DNA from: Sneathiella sp.
GTDB lineage: Bacteria > Pseudomonadota > Alphaproteobacteria > Sneathiellales > Sneathiellaceae
Length of the DNA stretch: 64,000 bases
Reading direction: 5' to 3'
Assembly: GCA_017643685.1 (NCBI GenBank)
Contig: JAEPMY010000005.1
Span: 1-64,000 of the forward strand
The position numbers and the translations under genes were made by a program. The notes below the pieces were generated by a model that did not search any database, had not been told where the DNA came from, and worked only from the letters and a program-made list of their open reading frames with translations. How positions within the stretch are numbered: position 1 is the stretch's first letter; each line of letters starts with the position of its first letter. Positions 1 through 23,073 of this stretch are shown here, in pieces.

Positions 1-165
1 AAGGGCACTTAATGAGATACGGATTTGTTCAACATTTGGGATGTTAATCTCAAATTGTTGGGAAGGGATCGTGCTCAACAGACAAAAATTAACGGCAAAA
101 GACAGGGCGAGAAAACCGCCCCATCTCTTGAAGTTAATTGGTTGTTCTGCGATCGCAGTTACCAT
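1..165 (-). CDS. TonB-like energy transducer, N-terminal part (cut by window edge)
   Basis: Reading the minus strand from an ATG at 165 gives 55 codons open to the window edge. The peptide has a short cytoplasmic start, one hydrophobic segment at about residues 15-33 (WGGFLALSFAVNF...) and then IRISLSAL, the layout of a TonB protein that anchors in the inner membrane and spans the periplasm. The ATG lies inside the last codons of the TonB-dependent receptor (overlap 159-165), so the two are probably translationally coupled. TonB next to a haem receptor is a common alphaproteobacterial arrangement. Only the N-terminus is visible, so the Pro-rich linker and C-terminal domain that would prove the call are missing; another single-pass envelope protein is possible. 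Confidence 0.55.
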   Translation of the reverse strand, partial: MVTAIAEQPINFKRWGGFLALSFAVNFCLLSTIPSQQFEINIPNVEQIRISLSAL

Positions 166-2198
166 TTATAGCTCGCTTTCACGTTGAAGCTACGGCCTTC
201 CTCAACCAGAACGGCATACCGTTTGGTGTATTTCTGGTCGAAGATATTGCTGATGCCGAAGTCGACAGTGACGTTCTGGAATGATCCATCGGTTGGGGCC
301 CAGCGATAATAAATGTCGTGGACGCCGTATCCGCCTGTACCTTCGTTGCCATCGCTCACACGGTCATTGCCTTTGGCATATCGGCTTTGGAAGCCAACAA
401 CTGATGAATATTCAGCAATTGTGTAGTTGAAATCGGTGGTCAGCGTCAGAGGCACATTATTGTCATTGTAATCGCCAGTATCCTTATCCTTTGCATGGAC
501 GTAGGAAAGACCCGCATTTGCTTCAAAGGCGCCAATTGCGTATGACGATGACATTTCGAAGCCGTACAGCTCTGCTTTGTCAATGTTGAGGAACTGCGTC
601 GTTCCCGCAAACACATTTACCTCTTGTGCGATGAAATCTTTACCTTCACTCAAGAAGACAGAACCTTTTACATTCAGGCTATCTTCGTCAGTGAAAAGTT
701 TATCGAAATCAACACCCGCACCCAGCTCATATGTTGTGACCTTTTCAGGTGCCAAATCCGGGTTTGGAATAAAGAAGTTGTTCGGGATCGGGCCACCGCC
801 TGGGAAGTGAAGGCCCGCGGCATATACTTCGGTCATGTTTGGCGCACGGAAAGCCTGTGCAATGCTACCAAAAATGACGAAGTTATCTGTCGGGTTATAG
901 CTCAGCGCCAATTTTGGTGAGAAAGCGCTTTCATCCTGTTCGTTGCCAACCTCATCTTCAGTTTGGTAGCGATCATAACGGAGGCCCGGAATAATTAGAA
1001 AGCGGCCAATACCTGTTTCAAATGCGATTTCATCTTGAATAAACGCGCCGTAGTTCAGCGTTTCCGCATTTGGGACACCGGGGCGTGTCCCGTCGCCGGT
1101 CGCCGTACTTTTACCGGTTTGCTTGTCCTGATAAATCTCAAATCCATAAGAAAGGGTATGTTTATGGGTATCGGAAATCTCAAAACGGCTTTGGTTATCT
1201 GCAGTAAAGCCTAGTGTTTTAATCGCGCGGCTTTGAACACGGCCGGCATTAGTTCCGGTGATGTCTGTTTCTTCAACATCTGTATCATTGAAGTAGAGAT
1301 GTAGTTTTGAATTCAGCAGGGTATCGCCGGGGTTTTCATAGGCGTATTTTAGGCTGTATTGCTTGTCATCAACGACTTTGTCCACGATAGGATTGGATGA
1401 TCCAATAGCACCCGCGCCGTTATTTGGCTCTTGTCCATCATTGTTCGATCCTTGGAATTCGGCTTTGAAAGTGTGCCAATCCCCAATGGTGAATGAGCCT
1501 TTCAAAAGGGCAGAGGCGACTTGATCATCTGTGTCCAGTTCGTCCTCGGGCGTGTTGATATCCCCAGAAGAGCGAAGTGCGAGACTACCAATGATATCAA
1601 GGTTTTCTGTCCGCCCATAACCTGTGAGAATAGAAGAAACCTCTTCATTTCCTGTGCGTCCGCCAAGGGAGAAGCTTGCGCCAGCCATCTCACCAGGCTC
1701 CAGAATGTCGGCTGCGTCTTTTGTTTCAAACGCAACTACCCCACCGATGGCGCCGCCGCCATAAATGGACGATGCCGCGCCCTTAACAACCTCAACCCGG
1801 CGAAGCAGGGAAGGGTCAATGAAGAAACGGCCGTCATGGGCAGACTCAAAATTCTGACGGCGACCATCTTTTAGGGTGATAATAGCTTCGGCATCAAATC
1901 CACGAATGGAAACCGTCTGTCCGTTGCGGCGCGGGCCGTTATCAACTTCAACACCTGGCGTGTGGTTCAGAAGATCTTTGGTACTACTGGAGAGAGCTTT
2001 ACCCGGTGCCTCTGTGTCAATAACATTAACGATTGCCGGCACATCAAACGTGGATTGCGCGCTTTTCGTCGCATAAACGGTTACTGCTTCCAGATTTTTA
2101 GTTTCTTTTTCCTGCTCAGCCGCGATAACCGGGCTTAAGCAAGTAGTTGTGAGCAGGGCACCAGCTAGTGCCACGCAAGACGCATGTCGCATAATCAT
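159..2198 (-). CDS. TonB-dependent haem/haemoglobin outer-membrane receptor
   Basis: A 679-residue outer-membrane receptor. Residues 1-26 are a signal peptide, followed by a short TonB-box region, a plug domain (about 40-160, with VSIRGFDAEAIITLKDGRR and VVKGAASSIYGGGAIGG) and a 22-strand-type barrel ending in the aromatic residue of NVKASYKW. The extracellular part carries QAFRAPNMTEVY and FIPNPDLAPEK, which match the FRAP and NPNL boxes of haem receptors such as HmuR and ShuA. It probably imports haem using TonB energy. It lies downstream of hemP and overlaps the TonB-like gene, forming a haem-uptake operon. Iron regulation is inferred from the site upstream of hemP. The family call is firm; the exact ligand (haem, haemoglobin) is inferred. 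Confidence 0.9.
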   Translation of the reverse strand: MIMRHASCVALAGALLTTTCLSPVIAAEQEKETKNLEAVTVYATKSAQSTFDVPAIVNVIDTEAPGKALSSSTKDLLNHTPGVEVDNGPRRNGQTVSIRGFDAEAIITLKDGRRQNFESAHDGRFFIDPSLLRRVEVVKGAASSIYGGGAIGGVVAFETKDAADILEPGEMAGASFSLGGRTGNEEVSSILTGYGRTENLDIIGSLALRSSGDINTPEDELDTDDQVASALLKGSFTIGDWHTFKAEFQGSNNDGQEPNNGAGAIGSSNPIVDKVVDDKQYSLKYAYENPGDTLLNSKLHLYFNDTDVEETDITGTNAGRVQSRAIKTLGFTADNQSRFEISDTHKHTLSYGFEIYQDKQTGKSTATGDGTRPGVPNAETLNYGAFIQDEIAFETGIGRFLIIPGLRYDRYQTEDEVGNEQDESAFSPKLALSYNPTDNFVIFGSIAQAFRAPNMTEVYAAGLHFPGGGPIPNNFFIPNPDLAPEKVTTYELGAGVDFDKLFTDEDSLNVKGSVFLSEGKDFIAQEVNVFAGTTQFLNIDKAELYGFEMSSSYAIGAFEANAGLSYVHAKDKDTGDYNDNNVPLTLTTDFNYTIAEYSSVVGFQSRYAKGNDRVSDGNEGTGGYGVHDIYYRWAPTDGSFQNVTVDFGISNIFDQKYTKRYAVLVEEGRSFNVKASYKW

Positions 2199-2276: not shown

Positions 2277-2480
2277 TTACTTGGTTAAAATCAGTTTTCC
2301 GTTTCCAGTCAGGCGAAGCTTATATTCGGAACCATCATGCAGAATGGACAGCTCGCGTCCGCCAACAAACAGGGCGGTACTTTCGATCTTGTGGTCCTTA
2401 ACTGCGATGTTCCAGTCCGACACTGCGGGAGCAGCGTTTCTATTCACCATAACCTTGGTACTCAACTGATTGTGATTCAT
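2277..2480 (-). CDS. hemP: Hemin uptake protein HemP
   Basis: A 67-residue protein whose second half (FVGGRELSILHDGSEYKLRL followed by TGNGKLILTK) matches the HemP family signature: a Gly-Gly-Arg turn, then a short beta hairpin ending in LTxxGKLILTK. HemP is a small protein that in several proteobacteria promotes expression of the adjacent haem receptor gene; here it is directly upstream of that receptor. The start is uncertain. An ATG at 2480 lacks a clear Shine-Dalgarno and lies only a few bases after the predicted transcription start. An ATG at 2450 (MVNRN) would give 57 residues with AAGG placed close in front. Confidence 0.85.
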   Translation of the reverse strand: MNHNQLSTKVMVNRNAAPAVSDWNIAVKDHKIESTALFVGGRELSILHDGSEYKLRLTGNGKLILTK

Positions 2481-2552: not shown

Positions 2553-4130
2553 TTAGAGACAGTTTTTAAATTGAAGCAGGCCAAACCCAAAAAGAGGGTC
2601 TTTTCCCTCTGCACCTAAATCAATTGCTTCTGTGGCAAGTTGTGAGCGAATAAACTCCGGTGAGCGGTTTTTCCTGTCTTTCTCATCAGAGAGGATTAGT
2701 GCGGTTTTCAGTACCGCAAAAGGCACCGCAAAAGAGGTGCCGGACTGGTAACTGGCCCCTTCGCCTTTTCGGGCTGTCCATATACCAACACCGGGGGCGG
2801 CAATATCGATAAATGATCCACGATTGGCTTTGGAGTATAGGCTTTTGGTTGGGCCAACTGCAGTTACAGCGATAACTGAAGGATATGCTGCGGGGTAAAT
2901 CGGATGATCTTCTAAACCGCCATTTCCGGAAGCCGCAACGATAAGTATTCCCATTTGATCGATTTTTTCAATGGTGGACGCGACGGCGCGATTATAGGGC
3001 CCCTCCATTGAGATGCTGATAATTTCCGATTTAACTTTTATTAACCAGTTAAATGATTTTAATAGGGAAGTGCTGTTCCCGGTGCCCGTATCCTGTCCTA
3101 AAATATCTGCCACAAAAACGCGTGCGTTCGGCAATAAACCCCTAAGAGAAAGGGCGTTGTCCTGCCCTTTGAATAAAGCCGTAATCGCTGTTCCGTGGGC
3201 TGAGGCAATAGGAGGGGAGGGAGGGCCGTCGCCAAATCTGGCGATCCGAACATCTTTTGCCTTCTGTAATGCCGAGTGGCGCATATCCGGCGCTCCGTCG
3301 ATTATCCCGACCCGGATGTTATTCTCTTCGGCATCTTCGCAAATGTTTGGTGGTGTCGGCAGGCCGGTTAATTTCTGCGCGTAAGATTTTCGCCCGTTTG
3401 CTAATCGGCTGATGTGGTTGAAATCAATCTCCGCATCTGGATAATCAAGTCGAAGATTTTCGATCAATTCAGATAACTTCTGACCGCTTGGTGCTTTAAG
3501 ACGAAGCAGGTGAGTTTCTAAAAAATTTAGGGAGACATCTTCAAGAATGACATATCCTGCGGCAACCAAATCTGCACGGATTTGACTAATTCCGCCCGCG
3601 TCATATGCGCTTTGAGGAAGTAGTATCAATATCTCTGCAGGGAGATAATCCTGCGTATTATTATCCGTGTTAGGGTTTGCGCCCGCAGAAGCACATTTCT
3701 GAATGTTGATTGTGTTCCCTGTTCCTTCGATCAAGCGTTTATCAACTTTGATCTGGAAACGATAGTTTTTGTGTTCCTCCAGTTTTATCTGCTTTTGCAG
3801 GCGGCTGGTGATTAAGCCATCCCGCACAGATAAGATGGGCAGGGAGATACCGCCCGGTTCGAGTGTGATTTCCAACGCCGCCCGACGAGGTCTTGAAAAC
3901 CCCTTGCCAAGGAGGCGAATTAACTGTCCTTCTTCAAGGCAAGTTCCTTCAACTCGGTGAAAGGCATAAGAAGTTCCGCCACCTCTTCCCGGGTCGGTTG
4001 AATTTGTGGCGCCGGGCATTGGTGCCGTTCCGGGGGCACCAGTTGGTGTCCGGGGTGCGGTCTGCGCCAAGACGCTATGCCCATAGCAAAGGGTTGCTAT
4101 CGTTAGAAGCGCTACGAGAAGGCGTTTCAT
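2553..4130 (-). CDS. Secreted S8-family (subtilisin-like) serine peptidase
   Basis: A 525-residue exported protease. It has a signal peptide (1-22), a Pro/Gly/Thr-rich linker (23-55) and a beta-rich region (about 60-145) that looks like an IPT/TIG or pro-domain. A second pro-region precedes the subtilisin domain (about 265-520). The catalytic triad is visible as Asp278 (GIIDGAPD), His312 (ASAHGTA) and Ser466 (QSGTSFAVP), with the oxyanion Asn in AASGNGG. It is the last gene of a tight operon behind a sigma and anti-sigma factor, with GGAGG 5 bases before its ATG. The context suggests a role in envelope or surface-protein processing under that sigma factor, but the substrate is unknown. Confidence 0.9.
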   Translation of the reverse strand: MKRLLVALLTIATLCYGHSVLAQTAPRTPTGAPGTAPMPGATNSTDPGRGGGTSYAFHRVEGTCLEEGQLIRLLGKGFSRPRRAALEITLEPGGISLPILSVRDGLITSRLQKQIKLEEHKNYRFQIKVDKRLIEGTGNTINIQKCASAGANPNTDNNTQDYLPAEILILLPQSAYDAGGISQIRADLVAAGYVILEDVSLNFLETHLLRLKAPSGQKLSELIENLRLDYPDAEIDFNHISRLANGRKSYAQKLTGLPTPPNICEDAEENNIRVGIIDGAPDMRHSALQKAKDVRIARFGDGPPSPPIASAHGTAITALFKGQDNALSLRGLLPNARVFVADILGQDTGTGNSTSLLKSFNWLIKVKSEIISISMEGPYNRAVASTIEKIDQMGILIVAASGNGGLEDHPIYPAAYPSVIAVTAVGPTKSLYSKANRGSFIDIAAPGVGIWTARKGEGASYQSGTSFAVPFAVLKTALILSDEKDRKNRSPEFIRSQLATEAIDLGAEGKDPLFGFGLLQFKNCL

Positions 4131-4139
4131 AATCGCCTC

Positions 4140-4748
4140 CTATTCCGCGAGAGCTTCCTGAATAAGGGGGGATGCGTTTAAGCGTGCCAGCAGTTCTTGG
4201 CGGGTGTTGTTTGAGAGCTTTTCAATGGCCGCAACACGGTAATACCCAATTTCTGTCGGACCTTCGATGATTGTTAGCTTCTCAGCTGCTAGTAGGCTGC
4301 TAATCGCTCCTTGATTACCTTCGGCTTCAAAGAAAATCTGGAAAACCGGGCCTTCTACTTTTGTGGTGCCTGACGCAGTTACATAATCATCGGACCCCGT
4401 GATCGGCGCATATAGTTGGACGCTGAGGGCAAAGATAAGCGCAATGGTTGCGGCAATTGCTGCAATGCGCCAGAAACGGTTTTCATTGGCTGGTGGTTTT
4501 GGGAGGTTTCCGACGTTCGCATCAGCATCGATTGCTTTGTGCAAGCGAGCGAGGCCCAGCTCACCTGGACTTTGCCCCATATCTTCGGCTTTAATATTCG
4601 CTCGCAAGGCTTTTAAGTAATCAAGCTCTAACCGGAATGCTTCATCTTCCTGGAGGCGCTTCTCAACGGCTTCCTTCTCAATGCCTTCCAAAGTGCCGTT
4701 GGCGTAGAACGGCAGTAGCTGCTCAAGATCCTTTGCAGTATCAGTCAT
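4140..4748 (-). CDS. Membrane-anchored anti-sigma factor
   Basis: A 202-residue protein with an N-terminal cytoplasmic domain (LLPFYANGTLEGIEKEAVEK), one membrane segment at about residues 92-112 (WRIAAIAATIALIFALSVQL) and a periplasmic C-terminal domain. The layout is that of an ECF anti-sigma factor. No HxxxCxxC zinc motif is visible, so it is not a ZAS-type anti-sigma. Its start codon overlaps the stop of the ECF sigma gene by 4 bases (ATGA), the usual pairing. Release of the sigma factor could occur by proteolysis or ligand sensing in the periplasm. The neighbouring exported subtilisin is an attractive but unproven partner. Confidence 0.8.
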   Translation of the reverse strand: MTDTAKDLEQLLPFYANGTLEGIEKEAVEKRLQEDEAFRLELDYLKALRANIKAEDMGQSPGELGLARLHKAIDADANVGNLPKPPANENRFWRIAAIAATIALIFALSVQLYAPITGSDDYVTASGTTKVEGPVFQIFFEAEGNQGAISSLLAAEKLTIIEGPTEIGYYRVAAIEKLSNNTRQELLARLNASPLIQEALAE

Positions 4749-5314
4749 GATCTGTCTCCTGTGAATTTGGAGATGCAGAGTTTTAAAGCCTGTTTTGCAT
4801 GAAAGATGCGTGTTTTGACGGTGCCCTCTGGCCTGCCAATAATTTTAGCAATTTCCGGGTAGGACATATCTTCATAAAAAGCGAGTTGGACAACAGCGCG
4901 CTGTGTGGCCTTCAAGGCTTCGATGCATTTGGCGATTAATGTCGCCTCTTCTGTTGCGCCAACCAATTCCATGGGATTTAAAACCTCTTCATCGACAATA
5001 TCTTCGTTATCGTCTTCTGAAAACTGGTCCGGCATTTTTTTGCGGATCCGGTCGACGGTTTTATTAAAGGCTATTCCAAAAAACCAGGTACTGACTTTGG
5101 AGCGCCCTTCAAATCGATCGGCCTTTCGCCAGATTTCCATAAAGACTTCATGAAGTATGTCGTAGGCCTCGAAGGAATCGTTCAATTTTTTCTGAATAAA
5201 AAAGTAGATGTGCTTTTCATGGCGTTTGTAAAACAGATCAAAGGCCGCCCGGTCTTGCCGGGCGATCCTTTCTATCAGTTCTTCATCAGAAGGCTCTGTG
5301 ATCTGTGTTGCCAT
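4745..5314 (-). CDS. ECF RNA polymerase sigma factor
   Basis: A 189-residue ECF sigma factor. Region 2 runs from about residue 25 to 95 (DILHEVFMEIWRKADRF, then STWFFGIAFNKTVDRIRKK). Region 4 covers about 130-182 (QLAFYEDMSYPEIAKIIGRP then GTVKTRIFHAKQALK), a helix-turn-helix for the -35 element. An acidic linker (EDDNEDIVDEEV) joins them. It sits between the barrel/secreted-protein genes and its anti-sigma factor, all on one strand with gaps of 11 bases or less, so it is probably autoregulated. Its promoter sequence was not identified. Confidence 0.93.
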   Translation of the reverse strand: MATQITEPSDEELIERIARQDRAAFDLFYKRHEKHIYFFIQKKLNDSFEAYDILHEVFMEIWRKADRFEGRSKVSTWFFGIAFNKTVDRIRKKMPDQFSEDDNEDIVDEEVLNPMELVGATEEATLIAKCIEALKATQRAVVQLAFYEDMSYPEIAKIIGRPEGTVKTRIFHAKQALKLCISKFTGDRS

Positions 5315-5325
5315 GTATCACTTTC

Positions 5326-6504
5326 TTAAGGGTATCGGATTTTACGCAAGTCAGACTGGGCAATAACAGTGCCATTATCTGAGATGGCCCGAAGGCGCCA
5401 AAGGTACGTGCGGCCGTGCTCTAGATGTTGAAAGCTGGTTTGTTGCAAGGTTGCTGATGTCGCTGTTCCGGGAACAATCTTACCCGCAACTAATTTACCA
5501 TCGACATCCAAAGGGCCTACAATCAGAGGGGACTGGCTCAGATTTTCGGCGGGATTTGATGGAGCGCCTGAATTGAAAATCTCAATTTGATAAGCCGCGG
5601 CACCAGGAACAGAAAGCCATGTAAAGGCTTGATCTGTATTCAGTGCCGCATTGTCTTTTGGTTGCACAACCTCGACATTCAACAGGCGTCCACCACCCGG
5701 CAATGAAGACGGGCTCACATAGTAGCGCAGTGTTGGTTCCTCAAATCGTAAACCGGGATCAGTGATGACCAACCGAACCTGATGCAAACCGCTAAGATCT
5801 GTGGGCAGTTTAGGGCTTTTCAGTCGAATGCGACCATTGCCAGCTGCGCTCAGTTGGCGGCGAACAACGCCTAGAACCCGTTCGAACTGGCCTCCGCGGA
5901 TTGAATTACTATCAATTAAGCGCCATTCGGCTTGCAACAACCCTTTCGCCCGGAAATTAATGTCTGCAACAGCGAAAAGTTCGTTATTTTGCTCAATGAT
6001 GCGGGTTTTACTGCCATTTTCAAATGCCAGATCAATCCGGTTGATTGAGAGCGCACCTGCAGAACCCGCAACATTTAAGCGCGCAGTAGCTGTCTGCGGA
6101 CCACCAAAGCCATCACTGAACAGGCGGACAATAGTTGCCACGTTGTTGTTATCGGCAATACGAATTGCAAGAGCCGCAGAAACCGGAATTGTTTCTGTAA
6201 AGGTCAGTGTTTCAGGAACACCAGCCGGAATGGTTGTTGTTCGGCTGAGAGATTTTGTCACTGTTGCAAAAGGAACCCCGTTCACATTGATTGTATAATC
6301 AGGGGAAGAGGTTGTGACTGTACCCGGCGCCGTCACAGAATGTACAACACGCCAGGTAATATTCACCGCGCCCCCAGTGGGGGAGACGGAGACCTGTACT
6401 GGCACCGGGGTCGCTGAGCTTACAGTCGCCTGAGCGATATGCCCGGTTAAGGCCGTAGCGGCGAAGATTACAAGAGCCATAATGCCGAGGAATGTCTGTT
6501 TCAT
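5326..6504 (-). CDS. Exported beta-domain protein of unknown function
   Basis: From the ATG at 6504 this is 392 residues beginning MKQTFLGIMALVIFAATA, a signal peptide. Longer upstream starts would run into the preceding gene and lack a signal sequence. The rest is beta-rich: an N-terminal domain with PVQVSVSPTGGAVNITWRV, a central domain, and a C-terminal fibronectin-III-like domain (LSVPGAAAYQIEIF...YLWRLRAISDNGTVIAQS). The preceding barrel gene ends one base before this start, so the pair is surely co-translated and the products may work together at the cell surface. I do not recognise a named family. Confidence 0.7.
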   Translation of the reverse strand: MKQTFLGIMALVIFAATALTGHIAQATVSSATPVPVQVSVSPTGGAVNITWRVVHSVTAPGTVTTSSPDYTINVNGVPFATVTKSLSRTTTIPAGVPETLTFTETIPVSAALAIRIADNNNVATIVRLFSDGFGGPQTATARLNVAGSAGALSINRIDLAFENGSKTRIIEQNNELFAVADINFRAKGLLQAEWRLIDSNSIRGGQFERVLGVVRRQLSAAGNGRIRLKSPKLPTDLSGLHQVRLVITDPGLRFEEPTLRYYVSPSSLPGGGRLLNVEVVQPKDNAALNTDQAFTWLSVPGAAAYQIEIFNSGAPSNPAENLSQSPLIVGPLDVDGKLVAGKIVPGTATSATLQQTSFQHLEHGRTYLWRLRAISDNGTVIAQSDLRKIRYP

Positions 6505-6505
6505 A

Positions 6506-8554
6506 TCAATAAACCAGCGGCGCCTTGAATTTAAGGACGAAGAAGCCTTCATAGGCCGTATCGTCAAGGGAACTATCTGCATTACCATGTTCTTTCTCCA
6601 TTGCCCCTCGAAACGCGATAGCAACTCCTGCGCTATTGATTTCAGCGGGGATCAAAGTCCATTCCATCTCGGTTGTCACGAGATGCCTATCTGGTATGTC
6701 GCCGCTACCTGAAGAAAGGTTCATATTATAATCAACACGGGCATTTAAAACTTCGGGGACAATGGCTGCCTGCAGGCCTAAATTGCCAGTAACATTGTAA
6801 GAGCGTTCAGAATTTGTTTTTTCAACATACCGGTTAAACTGTGTTCCGGCGGAAAGGCTGACATCGTCCGTAACGTTCCAATAAGCGGACAGGTCAACCA
6901 TCTCGTTGATTGTGTCAGAGGTGACATCGGCATGATCGTTATAAAATGAGTGGGTATAACCAACCTGCCAGTTCCATGTATTGTAGCTGCTGCCAAAATT
7001 GACGTAGGCATTACCTGTATTGTTGTTGGTATCATCGCCAAGATAGCCGACAGGTGTTTCAACGCGGTCTGCCCCCATGTAATTAACACCAAACCCCATA
7101 TAAGGGGTGCCTAACCATCCTACATCACCATTTTCATCATAACTTGGATCAAAGCTGTAGCTACCATCTAGGGCCGCTGTGAAGACCTGATCTGTGGCAA
7201 TGTCGCTATTATCGTCTACGTTATTTTGTTCAAGGGAAGTATAGGCGTTGAGGGCAAAAGACCCCCAGTAAAGGTTTGCGAAGGCAGAATAACCATCTCG
7301 ATCCGTTGCTAGTCCTGTATTTGCAAGGCTATAGAAATAGGTATCTACCTTTTCGTATTTTGCCCCAACTTTTAGGGAGAGTGGGGTGTCACGTGTTCCG
7401 TCATCACGGATCAGATCGTAATCGATAGAGAATGATTGGGCGTCCGCATCATCTTTGGAAAGCAGGGCTTCATCTCCATCCAGATCCATATCTGAATAAG
7501 CATATTCCCCTCGAACTCGCAGGCGATCTTCATACCATAGCGTGTCTGCAATGAATGCAGCCCCTTGACCTTTGGGGGCAGCATCAACGCCTAGCCCTCC
7601 GCCACTGCCAAAATCAGCTTCGCCGCCTTTCGACGTAAAATAAAGCCCCGTCAGTTCAATTTTTGCATCTTCATTCCAGACGGGGCGCCCCGCAATGGCC
7701 CCACCGACGACATAGCCACCATCTTCTTTTTGGCCGACGATGTCGTCGACTCCGGCAATGCTATCGCTCGACAGACTGAAACCTGTGATTTGCAGTCGGT
7801 CATCTGCGATGCTGCTTTTCAGCGAAATACCACGTCGATTGAAACCGGAGAAACTTAAGCTTTCGATGCCAATATCATGGTGACCAATATTGGCTTCCGC
7901 CCCAAAATTATCGCCGCTATAGGCGAAGCGGGCGGTATATTCACCAATATCGAACTCGTTGCCCGTTTGGGAAATCTCAGGCTCGCTTTCGAGGAAGTAA
8001 TTGGTGTTAAAATCAATGCTCCAGCGGCCATTTTCGTATCTGGCCCCGACGGTGCCGGCACCGGATGCCGTGGTATCTCTCAGTGACCCGTCTATATTTG
8101 TTTCAAAAAGACGTTGAGAAATCTCAAGGTCATTGTCGCTTTCAGCCGTTAGGCTACCGCCCGTGTTTGAGCCTCCATCCGCACTGGTTGTTTGAAATTC
8201 ATATTCTGCCCGGAGGACATAGTCACCACTTTCATCAAGTTCATAAACTCTGAAAGTATGGCTACCGGGATCAAGAGGCTGAAGGGCTGTGTAGCTTAGG
8301 CCAGTTGCCTGGAAAGCGGTCATTTCCGTGATATCAAAATTGTCGATTTCAACAATATACTTCGAGGGATCTGCTGACCATTCTTCACCGTCTATAGGCA
8401 GGGTCAGAACAAGCTGTCCATCACTTGTTGATTGAGAAATGGCATCTGGCCATTCAACAGCCGCAGAAGCAGGCGCCGTTGCCACAATAAGCATGGACAG
8501 ACCAACAACAATTCCTGCACTTTTTAAAAACTTATATTGAGACAGAATTGCCAC
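6506..8554 (-). CDS. Large outer-membrane beta-barrel protein, function unknown
   Basis: A 682-residue protein with a signal peptide (1-32, ending APASAAVEWPD). An N-terminal beta domain (about 33-125) precedes a long run of alternating amphipathic strands rich in Tyr, Gly, Asp and Asn (for example GAKYEKVDTYFYSLANTG and WQVGYTHSFYNDHADV). It ends FFVLKFKAPLVY, with a C-terminal aromatic as in outer-membrane barrels. There is no plug domain or TonB box. As first gene of the operon with the ECF sigma factor and protease it may be an export pore, an anchor for the next gene's product, or a signalling barrel. No named family was recognised. Confidence 0.65.
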   Translation of the reverse strand: MAILSQYKFLKSAGIVVGLSMLIVATAPASAAVEWPDAISQSTSDGQLVLTLPIDGEEWSADPSKYIVEIDNFDITEMTAFQATGLSYTALQPLDPGSHTFRVYELDESGDYVLRAEYEFQTTSADGGSNTGGSLTAESDNDLEISQRLFETNIDGSLRDTTASGAGTVGARYENGRWSIDFNTNYFLESEPEISQTGNEFDIGEYTARFAYSGDNFGAEANIGHHDIGIESLSFSGFNRRGISLKSSIADDRLQITGFSLSSDSIAGVDDIVGQKEDGGYVVGGAIAGRPVWNEDAKIELTGLYFTSKGGEADFGSGGGLGVDAAPKGQGAAFIADTLWYEDRLRVRGEYAYSDMDLDGDEALLSKDDADAQSFSIDYDLIRDDGTRDTPLSLKVGAKYEKVDTYFYSLANTGLATDRDGYSAFANLYWGSFALNAYTSLEQNNVDDNSDIATDQVFTAALDGSYSFDPSYDENGDVGWLGTPYMGFGVNYMGADRVETPVGYLGDDTNNNTGNAYVNFGSSYNTWNWQVGYTHSFYNDHADVTSDTINEMVDLSAYWNVTDDVSLSAGTQFNRYVEKTNSERSYNVTGNLGLQAAIVPEVLNARVDYNMNLSSGSGDIPDRHLVTTEMEWTLIPAEINSAGVAIAFRGAMEKEHGNADSSLDDTAYEGFFVLKFKAPLVY

Positions 8555-8721: not shown

Positions 8722-9984
8722 TTAGTTATTACTTTGCCGAGCAGGTTTTGGTGTTGGTGTAACCTGCTTTCTAATTTTTCCAAGGTCCGTTGATTGCGGG
8801 GATTGATCAAACGCTTTTTGACCATTATTCGCACTCGGTATAGCTAACTGAGGTGTACAGCGATGACGCCAGGTTGCAGAGCCGAAATCCTCCCAATCAC
8901 TCCAGCTATTCGCGTTTACATCTTTGACCTTTGCTTTGACCTGTAGCGGGTGATTGATTGTTTTGTTAATTTGACGCCAATCCGCACGCTGTGCCAGCTT
9001 CGCAATCAGTGGATATTCAAAATCCAGATGTTGGTTCAATTGCTGTTTTGAGTCGTAGGAAATCTCATTGGTTGAAAAAACAGGGCTTCCGTTGTCTTCG
9101 ACCATAAAGCGGATTTTACCTTTGCCATTACCTTTGTAGTTCACCCGAATAACAGGGTCCGTATCTGGGGCGCATTTACCGATATGATGTGGCATATTGG
9201 GTTGGAATTTGGCTTCATTAAGCTTGAGCGGGAGATTTTGGTTTATCTCGCTTTGGCCGCCGATCAGTCCAGCTTTTACCTGTGCTTTGTTGTGTATTTC
9301 GGGATCACCCGCATAGCGGAATGAGAAATTCACATCGATTGTTTTGTAGCCCCATTTCCGTTGATGATTGCCGGGCTCTAAGTATTTACGGCAGGCACTG
9401 GCCAGTGTAATCGGGCGGTTGATGCTAAAGAATTGCTCATTCTGGAGGAAGTCCAGTTTACTTTTACCACCATTTATATGGGCATTTAGTTTCTTGTTAA
9501 ACTCGGCAAGTGGATCAATTCGAATATCCTGAGATAGGTTTTTCAATTGGTTAATGTTGAATGTGACCGGATCAAAATTGCCAGCTTCACCGAACCATTT
9601 TGTCCCCGACCATTCTTCAAAGGAAGGTTTGTAATCACCTAATAAATGAGCACCTTGCTCATTAATTGTATCAACGAACAGGCTGACATTACCCAGATAA
9701 ACTTTCGAGGTTATATAATCGACCCTCTTGTTTTTTTGACAAATTACAACACCTCGGAAGTCAACATCAAAACTTGAGGTTTTGGGTTGAATATTGGCGA
9801 AATTGATATGTTTGTTATTGGATATATTTTCCAACACGACATCGATTTGGATACCTTGCCGTTCCAATGTGATCTTAGAAACATATTCAGAGTAGTCACT
9901 GCCCGCGGATAAGGCGGCAGTTGGCGCAAATACAGAAGAAGCCATCAAGCCGAACTGCAGAGTTTTTAAAATTATCTGTTTCAT
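8722..9984 (-). CDS. Exported protein of unknown function
   Basis: A 420-residue protein with a signal peptide (1-27, ending AALSAGSDY). The mature part is mixed alpha/beta, with scattered cysteines (VICQKN, ASACRKY, IGKCAPD, RHRCTPQ) that could form disulphides. A low-complexity Pro/Gln/Ser tail begins near residue 385. No membrane anchor, lipobox or catalytic motif was recognised. It stands alone: a hairpin follows it and 320 bases separate it from the divergent cydA. A periplasmic or secreted location is likely; the function is unknown. Confidence 0.65.
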   Translation of the reverse strand: MKQIILKTLQFGLMASSVFAPTAALSAGSDYSEYVSKITLERQGIQIDVVLENISNNKHINFANIQPKTSSFDVDFRGVVICQKNKRVDYITSKVYLGNVSLFVDTINEQGAHLLGDYKPSFEEWSGTKWFGEAGNFDPVTFNINQLKNLSQDIRIDPLAEFNKKLNAHINGGKSKLDFLQNEQFFSINRPITLASACRKYLEPGNHQRKWGYKTIDVNFSFRYAGDPEIHNKAQVKAGLIGGQSEINQNLPLKLNEAKFQPNMPHHIGKCAPDTDPVIRVNYKGNGKGKIRFMVEDNGSPVFSTNEISYDSKQQLNQHLDFEYPLIAKLAQRADWRQINKTINHPLQVKAKVKDVNANSWSDWEDFGSATWRHRCTPQLAIPSANNGQKAFDQSPQSTDLGKIRKQVTPTPKPARQSNN

Positions 9985-10304
9985 TTTGTATCTCCTGCCT
10001 GCGTCTCACAGGCGATTAAGCGATTAGATATCCTTTGGTCGCGCTTGGACGCAGTTCGGTTCAATTTTTTTTAGTATAACATACAAAATGAAAATCTAAT
10101 TTTCTATTCGATTGGTTTTGGTATTGTCGATAATCTCGGTTTTGATGTATTTTTGGAATGGTTCTAAAAGTTTAAGTCACTGATTTAAATCAATAAAAAT
10201 TCAATTTGTCGAAAATGTCGCGCGGCATAGTGTCCCACTGCTATGGATGAAGGCGTATCTCGGCGCTATTCTCTTGATAGTACTTACCCGCACGTGAGGC
10301 GCAC
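9985..10304. other. Divergent intergenic region between an exported-protein gene and cydA
   Basis: This 320-base gap has no credible gene. It must hold the leftward promoter of the exported protein and the rightward promoter of cydA. The only clear element is an FNR-type site at 10180-10193. The rest is A/T-rich. Confidence 0.7.
10180..10193 (+). promoter_or_regulatory. FNR/FixK-type box upstream of cydAB
   Basis: CTGAT-TTAA-ATCAA differs at one base from the FNR/Anr consensus TTGAT-N4-ATCAA and lies 112 bases before the cydA start. Control of bd-type oxidases by FNR-family regulators is well established, which supports the site. The regulator gene is not in the window. Confidence 0.55.
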
Positions 10305-21306: not shown

Positions 21307-23073
21307 ATGTCAGGACAAAAATCCTGGTTCAAATCGATTACTGCCAAGGCGCGTCCCTACTTTGTAGAGCTCGTTATTTATTCCTTTTTTGTCAATGTCT
21401 TGGCGTTGGTGATCCCTCTTTTTGTGTTGCAAACCTATAACCGCGTCGTGGCTTACGGAAATATCACCACTTTGCAGGGGTTGGTGATCGGCGTGTTTAT
21501 CGCGCTTGCTTTTGATTTTATTCTCCGCCAGCTCCGCTCTCGGCTATTGCAGCGGGCCGCTATGCGAGTAGAGCTGACATTAGCCGCAGCGCTTATGAAA
21601 AAATTCTGGGCACTGCCACTTCGCGTATTGGAAAATCGTAAAAGCGCTTATTGGCACGCTTTGTTCCGGGATGTGGATACAGTGCGAAACACCATCGCGG
21701 GACCACCTTTCCTGCTGTTGATTGATTTGCCCTTTGCGCTTCTCTTTATCCTGTTGATTTTCATTATCGCGCAACCGATCGCGTGGATTTTCCTAACCAT
21801 CCTGCCCATTTTCGTGGGCCTTGCTGCAGTCTCCAGCTATATGGTTCGAAAATCAGCAGATGCTGAAAAAGATAAGCAGCGGGCGCGGGATGGTCTTATC
21901 GCGGACATGGTGGGAAGCCGGGGAACCGTAAAGGCCTTGTCTCTTGATCAGGGCATTACCCCTTACTGGGAAGATTTGCAGGCCAGCACGGTTGAAGGCG
22001 CACTGCAGCGCGGCGCCCGGCAGGATGGCTTTATGAATGCGGGGACCGTTTTGACGCTGGCGACAACGGTGGTTATCACCGGTTTTGGGGCGGTGGCCAT
22101 CATTAATCAGGAACTTAGCATCGGTGCTTTGATCGCGGCAAATATGCTGTCCAGTCGGGTGGTGGGCCCCTTTAGCCAGCTCGTTGGGGCATGGCGAAAT
22201 TTTGCCAGTTATAAGCAATCACGTGACCGCTTGGATGAGGTTATGAGCCTGCCGACCGAACGGCAGGAAGCTGTGATTGATTTGGACAAACCCGATGGGG
22301 GGCTTAAAATTGATGAGATTACTTTCCGCTATCGCCCAGAGGGGGAGGCGGTCTTAGAGGGCTTAAGTGCAGATTTTGCGCCTAATAGCATTCACACGAT
22401 TATGGGGCCTAACGGCGGCGGTAAAAGTACGCTTTTGAAGCTTTTAAAGGGTCTTTATGCGCCAGAAAAGGGGCGGATTTTGCTGGGCGGTGCGGATATT
22501 GGGCAATTCACCCGCTTCCAGGTCGCCAGATGGATTGGGTATGTGCCGCAGGAAACAGTTCTAATCGGCGGCAGTATTAGGGATAATATATCTGGTAAAC
22601 GCGGCGATATTTCAGACGAGCAAGTGATCCATGCGGCAAAGCTTGCAAGTGTTCACAAAATCATATTGGATTTGCCAGATGGCTACGCGACAGATGTAGG
22701 AGAGGCGGGAAGTATGCTTTCCGGTGGGGTGCGCCAAAGGCTCAGCATTGCACGGGCCTTGGTATCTGATCCACCTTTTCTTATTTTGGATGAACCGTCT
22801 TCAAATCTCGACCGTCAGGCTGAACAGGCACTGAAAGATCTTCTGCAAAACTTGTCCAAGGACCATACGATTATTGTGGTTTCGCACAGTCCTATTCTGC
22901 TAGGGGCGACTGGGTATCTGCATTTACTGGATAAGAGCCGGTTTGTGCTCTCTGGGCCGCGGGATGTGGTCATGAAAGAACTGGAGGCTCGCGCAAATGC
23001 TTCCCCTAAATCAAAGTTGGGGGGGGGTGATAATATCTCCAACCTGAAAAAAGGGGAGGGGCGAGCGGGCTGA
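21307..23073 (+). CDS. Type I secretion ABC transporter (PrtD/HlyB-like permease-ATPase)
   Basis: A 588-residue half-size exporter from the ATG at 21307; an upstream ATG at 21238 would add 23 residues with no better ribosome-binding site. About six membrane helices occupy residues 25-290, followed by an ATPase domain with Walker [10 protein letters not shown], signature [15 protein letters not shown] and Walker [13 protein letters not shown]. There is no N-terminal C39 peptidase, so it is of the RTX-exporting type. It is the first gene of a run HlyD, cyclase, TolC. Its likely substrate is the FecR-RTX protein at 28597. Confidence 0.93.

Follow-up and report, generated by a model that had tools for sequence, protein, structure and literature searches.

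An ECF sigma factor operon of Sneathiella whose anti-sigma factor probably carries a relative of subtilase prodomains

The stretch of 64,000 nucleotides from Sneathiella sp. analysed here (positions 1 to 64,000 of contig JAEPMY010000005.1, assembly GCA_017643685.1; hereafter the window) carries an operon in which genes for two predicted surface proteins are followed by those for an extracytoplasmic function (ECF) sigma factor, a membrane-anchored anti-sigma factor and a subtilase of family S8 (Table 1). The periplasmic domain of the anti-sigma factor is probably homologous to the prodomains of subtilases, and its relationship with the pro-segment of the protease suggests that this brake on the sigma factor was built to meet the protease of its own operon. 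The best explanation, to which we assign a probability of roughly 0.45, is an ECF sigma/anti-sigma switch that reinforces itself and is coupled to a subtilase, either periplasmic or secreted. An earlier note on this DNA had proposed that the sigma and anti-sigma factors form a circuit that feeds back on the operon, and that the protease processes either a barrel-associated surface protein or the periplasmic part of the anti-sigma factor. The circuit gains substance here from sigma-type promoters found upstream of and inside the operon, and the link between the protease and the anti-sigma factor from the kinship of that periplasmic part with subtilase prodomains; processing of a surface protein gains no support.

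Several comparisons support this kinship. In a model built with AlphaFold2 (AF2) from eight sequences, the anti-sigma factor has a helical cytoplasmic part followed by a membrane helix and, C-terminally, by a domain with a beta-alpha-beta-beta-alpha-beta arrangement (predicted local distance difference test, pLDDT, of ~75-86). Among the Foldseek matches of this domain, the prodomains of PCSK1 (9fie_B and 9fid_D) and subtilisin BPN' (1spb_P) have the top template modelling (TM) scores when normalised by target (0.63-0.67), with root-mean-square deviations (rmsd) of 2.2-2.9 that are among the lowest in the list. At the sequence level, the fervidolysin prodomain family of Pfam (PF22148) matches 16 of 49 anti-sigma domains, with a best E-value of 4.3e-6, and one full-length anti-sigma factor exceeds the curated cut-off of this family (21.9 vs 21 bits); the same family also matches two of the subtilase prodomains. 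Profile-profile comparison of the anti-sigma domain with the prodomain of the operon's own subtilase gave scores of 20-24 (P 0.0003-0.001); no score above 16.3 arose from 60 column shuffles, nor any above 16.1 from windows of other genes, and over the entire subtilase profile the best match of the anti-sigma domain was the prodomain. Deeper alignments were required for this result, as the same comparison with just eight sequences was not significant (E 0.097), and a sequence search of the PDB with the profiles of the anti-sigma domain and the subtilase prodomain returned nothing meaningful. The resemblance to the prodomains of fervidolysin (PF22148), BPN' (1spb_P), and PCSK1 (9fie_B) thus concerns the fold and, in relatives, also family membership by sequence. 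Unlike those prodomains, the domain is here fused to an anti-sigma factor, is encoded on a polypeptide separate from the protease, and has no active-site tail: since the 49 anti-sigma factors end 0-7 residues (median 2) past the last strand, they lack the extension with which canonical prodomains plug the active site.

The protease and the sigma factor have the features expected of their families. In the subtilase, the Asp/His/Ser triad and the oxyanion Asn are recognisable, with D278, N403, and S466 invariant in 54 of 54 relatives and H312 present in 53 of 54 (the remaining one reads X). The sigma factor contains region 2 and region 4 domains only and adjoins a membrane anti-sigma factor with an N-terminal sigma-binding helical domain, so that the two form an ECF/class I pair in which the anti-sigma factor is class-I-like and the predicted partner of the sigma factor. 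In the linker between the membrane helix and the prodomain-like domain, 49 anti-sigma factors share an A-[GS]-G motif (A in 47, G or S in 46, and G in 38 of them) whose neighbouring positions vary.

The five open reading frames (ORFs) that the earlier note had read as one same-strand operon with gaps of at most 11 bases were confirmed, all on the minus strand, with intergenic spacings of 1, 11, -4, and 9 bases and in the transcription order 682-aa protein, 392-aa protein, ECF sigma factor, anti-sigma factor, subtilase. The note had also made its proposal depend on this order being kept in relatives. We gathered 80 named loci through similarity to the sigma factor, which represent the clade of this sigma rather than ECF factors at large, and sigma, anti-sigma, and subtilase genes are adjacent in 77 of them, the remaining three being cut by contig ends. 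They come from Alpha- and Gammaproteobacteria, from Micavibrio, and from one Nitrosomonadales bin. Within Sneathiella, the same order occurs in genomes G004, G005, G006, G010, G013, and G016, and G008 keeps part of it; the flanking genes differ. Since the order is kept both within the genus and in some 77 named loci, it is not due to chance, and the refutation offered in the note clearly fails. As to its extent, the five genes stand, but the reading of the unit as complete does not, as it missed the promoters and the regulon as well as a conserved sixth gene (8722-9984). Homologs of this gene, which encodes a secreted protein of 420 aa, lie immediately upstream of the barrel gene in 17 loci from Alpha- and Gammaproteobacteria and Micavibrio, and the family is present in all eight operon-bearing Sneathiella genomes vs one of 17 other genus members. 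Sequence comparison shows a unit of six genes, larger than first reported.

Among the 77 complete loci, 37 have both the barrel and the 392-aa genes, 34 consist of the triad alone, barrel absence being judged by profile, and six have one of the two. Because 34 of the 80 loci hold only sigma, anti-sigma, and protease, this triad is the core, with the barrel and the 392-aa protein as dispensable partners. This composition bears on two alternatives. In the first, the prodomain-derived domain would now bind a small ligand or another protein, either the 392-aa one or that of the first gene, and never meet the subtilase. Folds of the ferredoxin-like type have often been recruited for ligand sensing, ACT-type folds occur among the Foldseek matches, and the anti-sigma domain and the subtilase prodomain have strongly diverged, but no partner other than the subtilase is constant across the loci and the prodomain of the subtilase is the best internal profile match, which makes this alternative unlikely. 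A surface signalling system of the FecA/FecR type, in which the barrel would sense an external ligand and contact the anti-sigma factor with the protease as an accessory, is suggested by the presence of a probable outer-membrane protein in the same operon. We consider it very improbable: unlike in FecI/FecR/FecA, the operon genes have no Plug, TonB_dep_Rec, or FecR match in Pfam, and the triad-only loci keep the anti-sigma domain in spite of having no barrel.

A conserved ECF-type promoter occurs at three places in the operon. The first copy, P1, reads TTGAACCGAACTGCGTCCAAGCGCGAC at about 10064-10038 of the window, and 15 of 16 loci have TGAAC-N17-CG[AT]C ahead of the homolog of the first gene, any other spacing occurring in at most one locus. 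A slightly longer form gave, in 77 loci, 94 plus-strand matches at spacing 17, where each of the other spacings tested had 0-6; on the minus strand there were 10 matches. The second copy, P2, lies within the barrel gene and recurs in 28 of the 32 barrel genes listed. In Pelagibius a copy is intergenic, between two 392-type genes; the 392-aa gene is tandem-duplicated in L042, L045, L048, L052, L054, L056, L058, and L061 (Pelagibius and related), with the promoter between the copies. The third, P3, lies within the sigma gene and is found in 70 of 74 sigma genes, and in 18 of the 19 loci below 50% GC, where GAC accounts for only 29% of the Asp codons in sigma genes. In a scan of third codon positions blind to the motif, the P3 codons headed the ranking for the sigma gene (z 6.5, 6.3, 6.1, and 5.6, of 175 columns), and in the barrel gene four of the five highest-ranking codons belong to the P2 motif. 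We thus read P2 and P3 as predicted sigma-dependent internal promoters. The TGAAC..CGAC in the sigma gene had first been dismissed as a coding coincidence, a dismissal overturned by this synonymous-site test. A different guess directly 5' of the barrel gene (GGCAAC-N17-CGTAA) was not conserved and was replaced by P1 ahead of the sixth gene. Since none of 36 three-gene Rhodobacteraceae loci has the promoter directly upstream of the sigma gene, the internal copy may be autoregulatory there. One further match to the promoter pattern, at 22791-22816 on the plus strand, is compatible with chance (0.79 expected in the window).

The same promoter points to a regulon of secreted proteins. In eight Sneathiella genomes the exact pattern has 36 matches, vs 10 for a reversed control pattern. 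Many of these matches are 50-200 bases 5' of a gene for a secreted protein, for example a paralog of the 420-aa protein, a CARDB protein, or a protein of the beta-lactamase family. The CARDB protein is present in seven of the eight operon-bearing genomes vs none of 17 other Sneathiella genomes (p=1.7e-5), and its clear copies have the promoter. The window's own genome contains a CARDB gene (G000:C158:14496-15053, L127) and a second gene of the 420-aa family (G000:C114:1369-2199, L165), each with the promoter upstream. Many of the three-gene loci have the promoter immediately 3' of the subtilase gene, followed in the loci inspected (e.g., L073 and L104) by a gene for a small secreted protein. 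Small secreted Cys-containing proteins follow the Rhodobacteraceae triad at L073:10492-10896, L104:10573-10917, and L076:10388-10885, and in L073 and L104 the motif lies between the subtilase gene and this small gene.

As the subtilase is the one extracytoplasmic partner shared by every complete locus and the anti-sigma factor bears a plug-less prodomain relative, docking followed by cutting of the linker is the simplest reading. The prodomain-like domain would dock the mature subtilase of the same operon while leaving its active site unblocked, the subtilase would then cut the anti-sigma factor close to A-[GS]-G in a site-1-like manner, and additional proteolysis would release the sigma factor. 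Once freed, the latter would drive the envelope-protein regulon, as well as the anti-sigma factor and the protease from the internal promoters, in a positive feedback via P1-P3. The signal would be whatever detaches the protease from its own prodomain or shifts its periplasmic amount, and the barrel, 392-aa, and first-gene proteins could perhaps relay it. We infer both the docking and the cutting. In its most specific form, which we advance tentatively, the tailless prodomain on the anti-sigma factor would be a receptor for the mature subtilase of the same operon, the presence or maturation of the protease would be the transcription signal for the envelope-protein regulon, and sigma-dependent promoters would lie inside the sigma and outer-membrane genes.

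Some of the results weigh against the coupled switch. Foldseek gave no E-value below 0.001 for the anti-sigma domain, with the best prodomain at 0.026 and another ferredoxin-like fold as top match, and the window's own anti-sigma factor falls below the PF22148 threshold; for these reasons, the prodomain homology of the window copy rests on its relatives and on profiles. The subtilase model covers ~400 columns of pro-subtilisins only at an rmsd of ~21 and, therefore, its own prodomain is not modelled in the classical docked pose. Moreover, a prodomain relative could inhibit the protease or aid its folding rather than be its substrate. In the main rival, based on inhibition and titration, the prodomain-like domain would be a membrane-anchored inhibitor or folding helper, the subtilase an effector that matures the secreted proteins of the regulon, free protease, in the face of excess substrate, would titrate the anti-sigma factor, and another protease would make the site-1 cut. 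Classical prodomains are well established as inhibitors and chaperones, the regulon is rich in secreted proteins that are plausible substrates, and every complete triad has the domain. We nevertheless find this rival doubtful because the tail that would block the active site is missing, the subtilase already has a prodomain of its own, and the conserved linker motif is left unexplained. Both the coupled switch and this rival predict binding, but they disagree on what removal of the protease would do.

Comparison with known systems reveals partial similarities. The earlier note knew of no described system with this exact set of genes, which holds for the literature searched, but ECF26 and ECF54 factors with neighbouring serine proteases or subtilases have been published (PMC6180224, PMC8999054). 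In the ECF26 system rpoE6-ecfR6/SMa0142 of S. meliloti, the serine protease gene is divergent and itself a target, a promoter within the sigma gene has been proposed, the -35 element is GGAATA, and the periplasmic part of the anti-sigma factor is said to resemble RsiW (PMC6180224). The Sneathiella operon likewise has genes for an ECF and a membrane anti-sigma factor beside a serine protease gene, and a predicted intragenic sigma promoter, whereas its protease gene is on the same strand as third of the triad and its -35 element is TTGAACC, not GGAATA, which sets it apart from ECF26 modules. One Sneathiella locus, L026, is of the ECF26 type, with sigma and anti-sigma factors that differ from those of the operon; at L026:8205-11110 (genome G022), the S8 protease is a paralog whose prodomain is similar, and it is divergent from this different ECF26-like pair, as for rpoE6/SMa0142. 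ECF54 genes occur with those for subtilases, carboxypeptidases, and CHAT proteins and have been described without an anti-sigma factor, proteolysis of the sigma itself being proposed (PMC8999054). A subtilase in the conserved neighbourhood is shared with our operon; the anti-sigma factor found here in all complete loci distinguishes it from ECF54. With RpoE/RseA and SigW/RsiW it shares a one-helix anti-sigma factor with cytoplasmic sigma-binding and extracytoplasmic parts, and it is by analogy with them that we propose the cleavage cascade. To our knowledge, the site-1 proteases of those two systems are not S8 subtilases and their anti-sigma factors have no subtilase-prodomain domain. Class I anti-sigma domains have been surveyed with Pfam 31 (PMC7406223); the present Pfam leaves the window copy of the domain unmatched at cut-off. 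We found no relevant link between anti-sigma factors and subtilisin prodomains in the literature searched, and the gene context may already be tabulated in the ECF reclassification.

Table 1. Genes, protein domains, and promoters of the Sneathiella operon, in window coordinates
Feature	Position	Strand	Basis
Secreted protein at head of unit (sixth gene), 420 aa	8722-9984	-	Homologs in 17 loci
Probable outer-membrane barrel, 682 aa, N-terminal immunoglobulin-like stretch	6506-8554	-	ORF, GTG start
Secreted beta-rich protein, 392 aa	5326-6504	-	ORF; position kept across relatives' loci
ECF sigma factor	4745-5314	-	Sigma70_r2 + Sigma70_r4_2 (Pfam)
Membrane-anchored anti-sigma factor, 202 aa	4140-4748	-	NF052375 3e-8 (NCBIfam); AF2 model
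Anti-sigma transmembrane helix, ~aa 91-113	4410-4478	-	Sequence; model helix H90-112 (model without Met1)
Juxtamembrane A-[GS]-G, aa 125-127, candidate cleavage site	4368-4376	-	Linker conservation
Periplasmic subtilase-prodomain-like domain of anti-sigma factor, ~aa 134-202	4143-4349	-	Pfam, AF2, Foldseek, profile comparison
S8 subtilase with signal peptide, 525 aa	2553-4130	-	PF00082 1e-22; Foldseek subtilisins E ~1e-21
Subtilase prodomain, ~aa 162-239	3414-3647	-	beta-alpha-beta-beta-alpha-beta; mean pLDDT of 10-residue blocks 84-97
Subtilase catalytic domain, aa 271-517	2580-3320	-	Pfam match 271-517
P1, ECF-type promoter TTGAACC-N16-CGAC	about 10035-10064	-	~54 nt 5' of first gene's ATG
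P2, promoter copy within 3' end of barrel gene	6698-6723	-	~194 nt before 392-aa gene
P3, promoter-like TTGAACGAT..CGACATA within sigma gene	5159-5184	-	Upstream of anti-sigma and protease genes

The 682-aa protein is a plausible outer-membrane barrel judging from its signal peptide, beta-rich sequence, and C-terminal ...KAPLVY, of which ...KAP..Y is conserved in an alignment of six relatives; it has no Pfam family, no PDB relative, and no model backing a barrel fold. The 392-aa protein has no Pfam family above cut-off, and a PDB sequence search with the profiles of both proteins gave nothing meaningful. Downstream of the subtilase gene, a short ORF that we take to be HemP-like (2277-2480, minus strand) and a TonB-dependent heme receptor gene (159-2198, minus strand) probably form a separate heme-uptake unit. 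A search for defence systems (PADLOC) produced no convincing match.

The distribution of the operon is patchy, with the barrel in eight of 385 genomes of the class and the anti-sigma domain in eight of 25 genus members. In a quick sigma tree, G006 and S. glossodoripedis group with Kiloniella, apart from the window's group, which suggests either transfer or two old lineages. In the S. glossodoripedis draft (L016/L064; G010:C12:868267-868511 and G010:C9:9711-10219), either sequencing error or decay would explain why the periplasmic domain of the anti-sigma factor and the CARDB target are frame-split or broken by stop codons.

The operon is widespread in bacteria and so far apparently undescribed. 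Many ECF systems have no known signal, whereas here the brake bears a domain of a known protease-binding family and the presumed protease is encoded next to it. Together with a mapped promoter, a partly mapped regulon, and close homologs in named isolates of Kiloniella, Pelagibius, Nioella, and Roseovarius, this makes the signal of the sigma factor directly testable. If true, the system would be a clear case of an anti-sigma factor that has recruited the fold of a protease prodomain, and of autoregulatory promoters whose conservation lies within genes.

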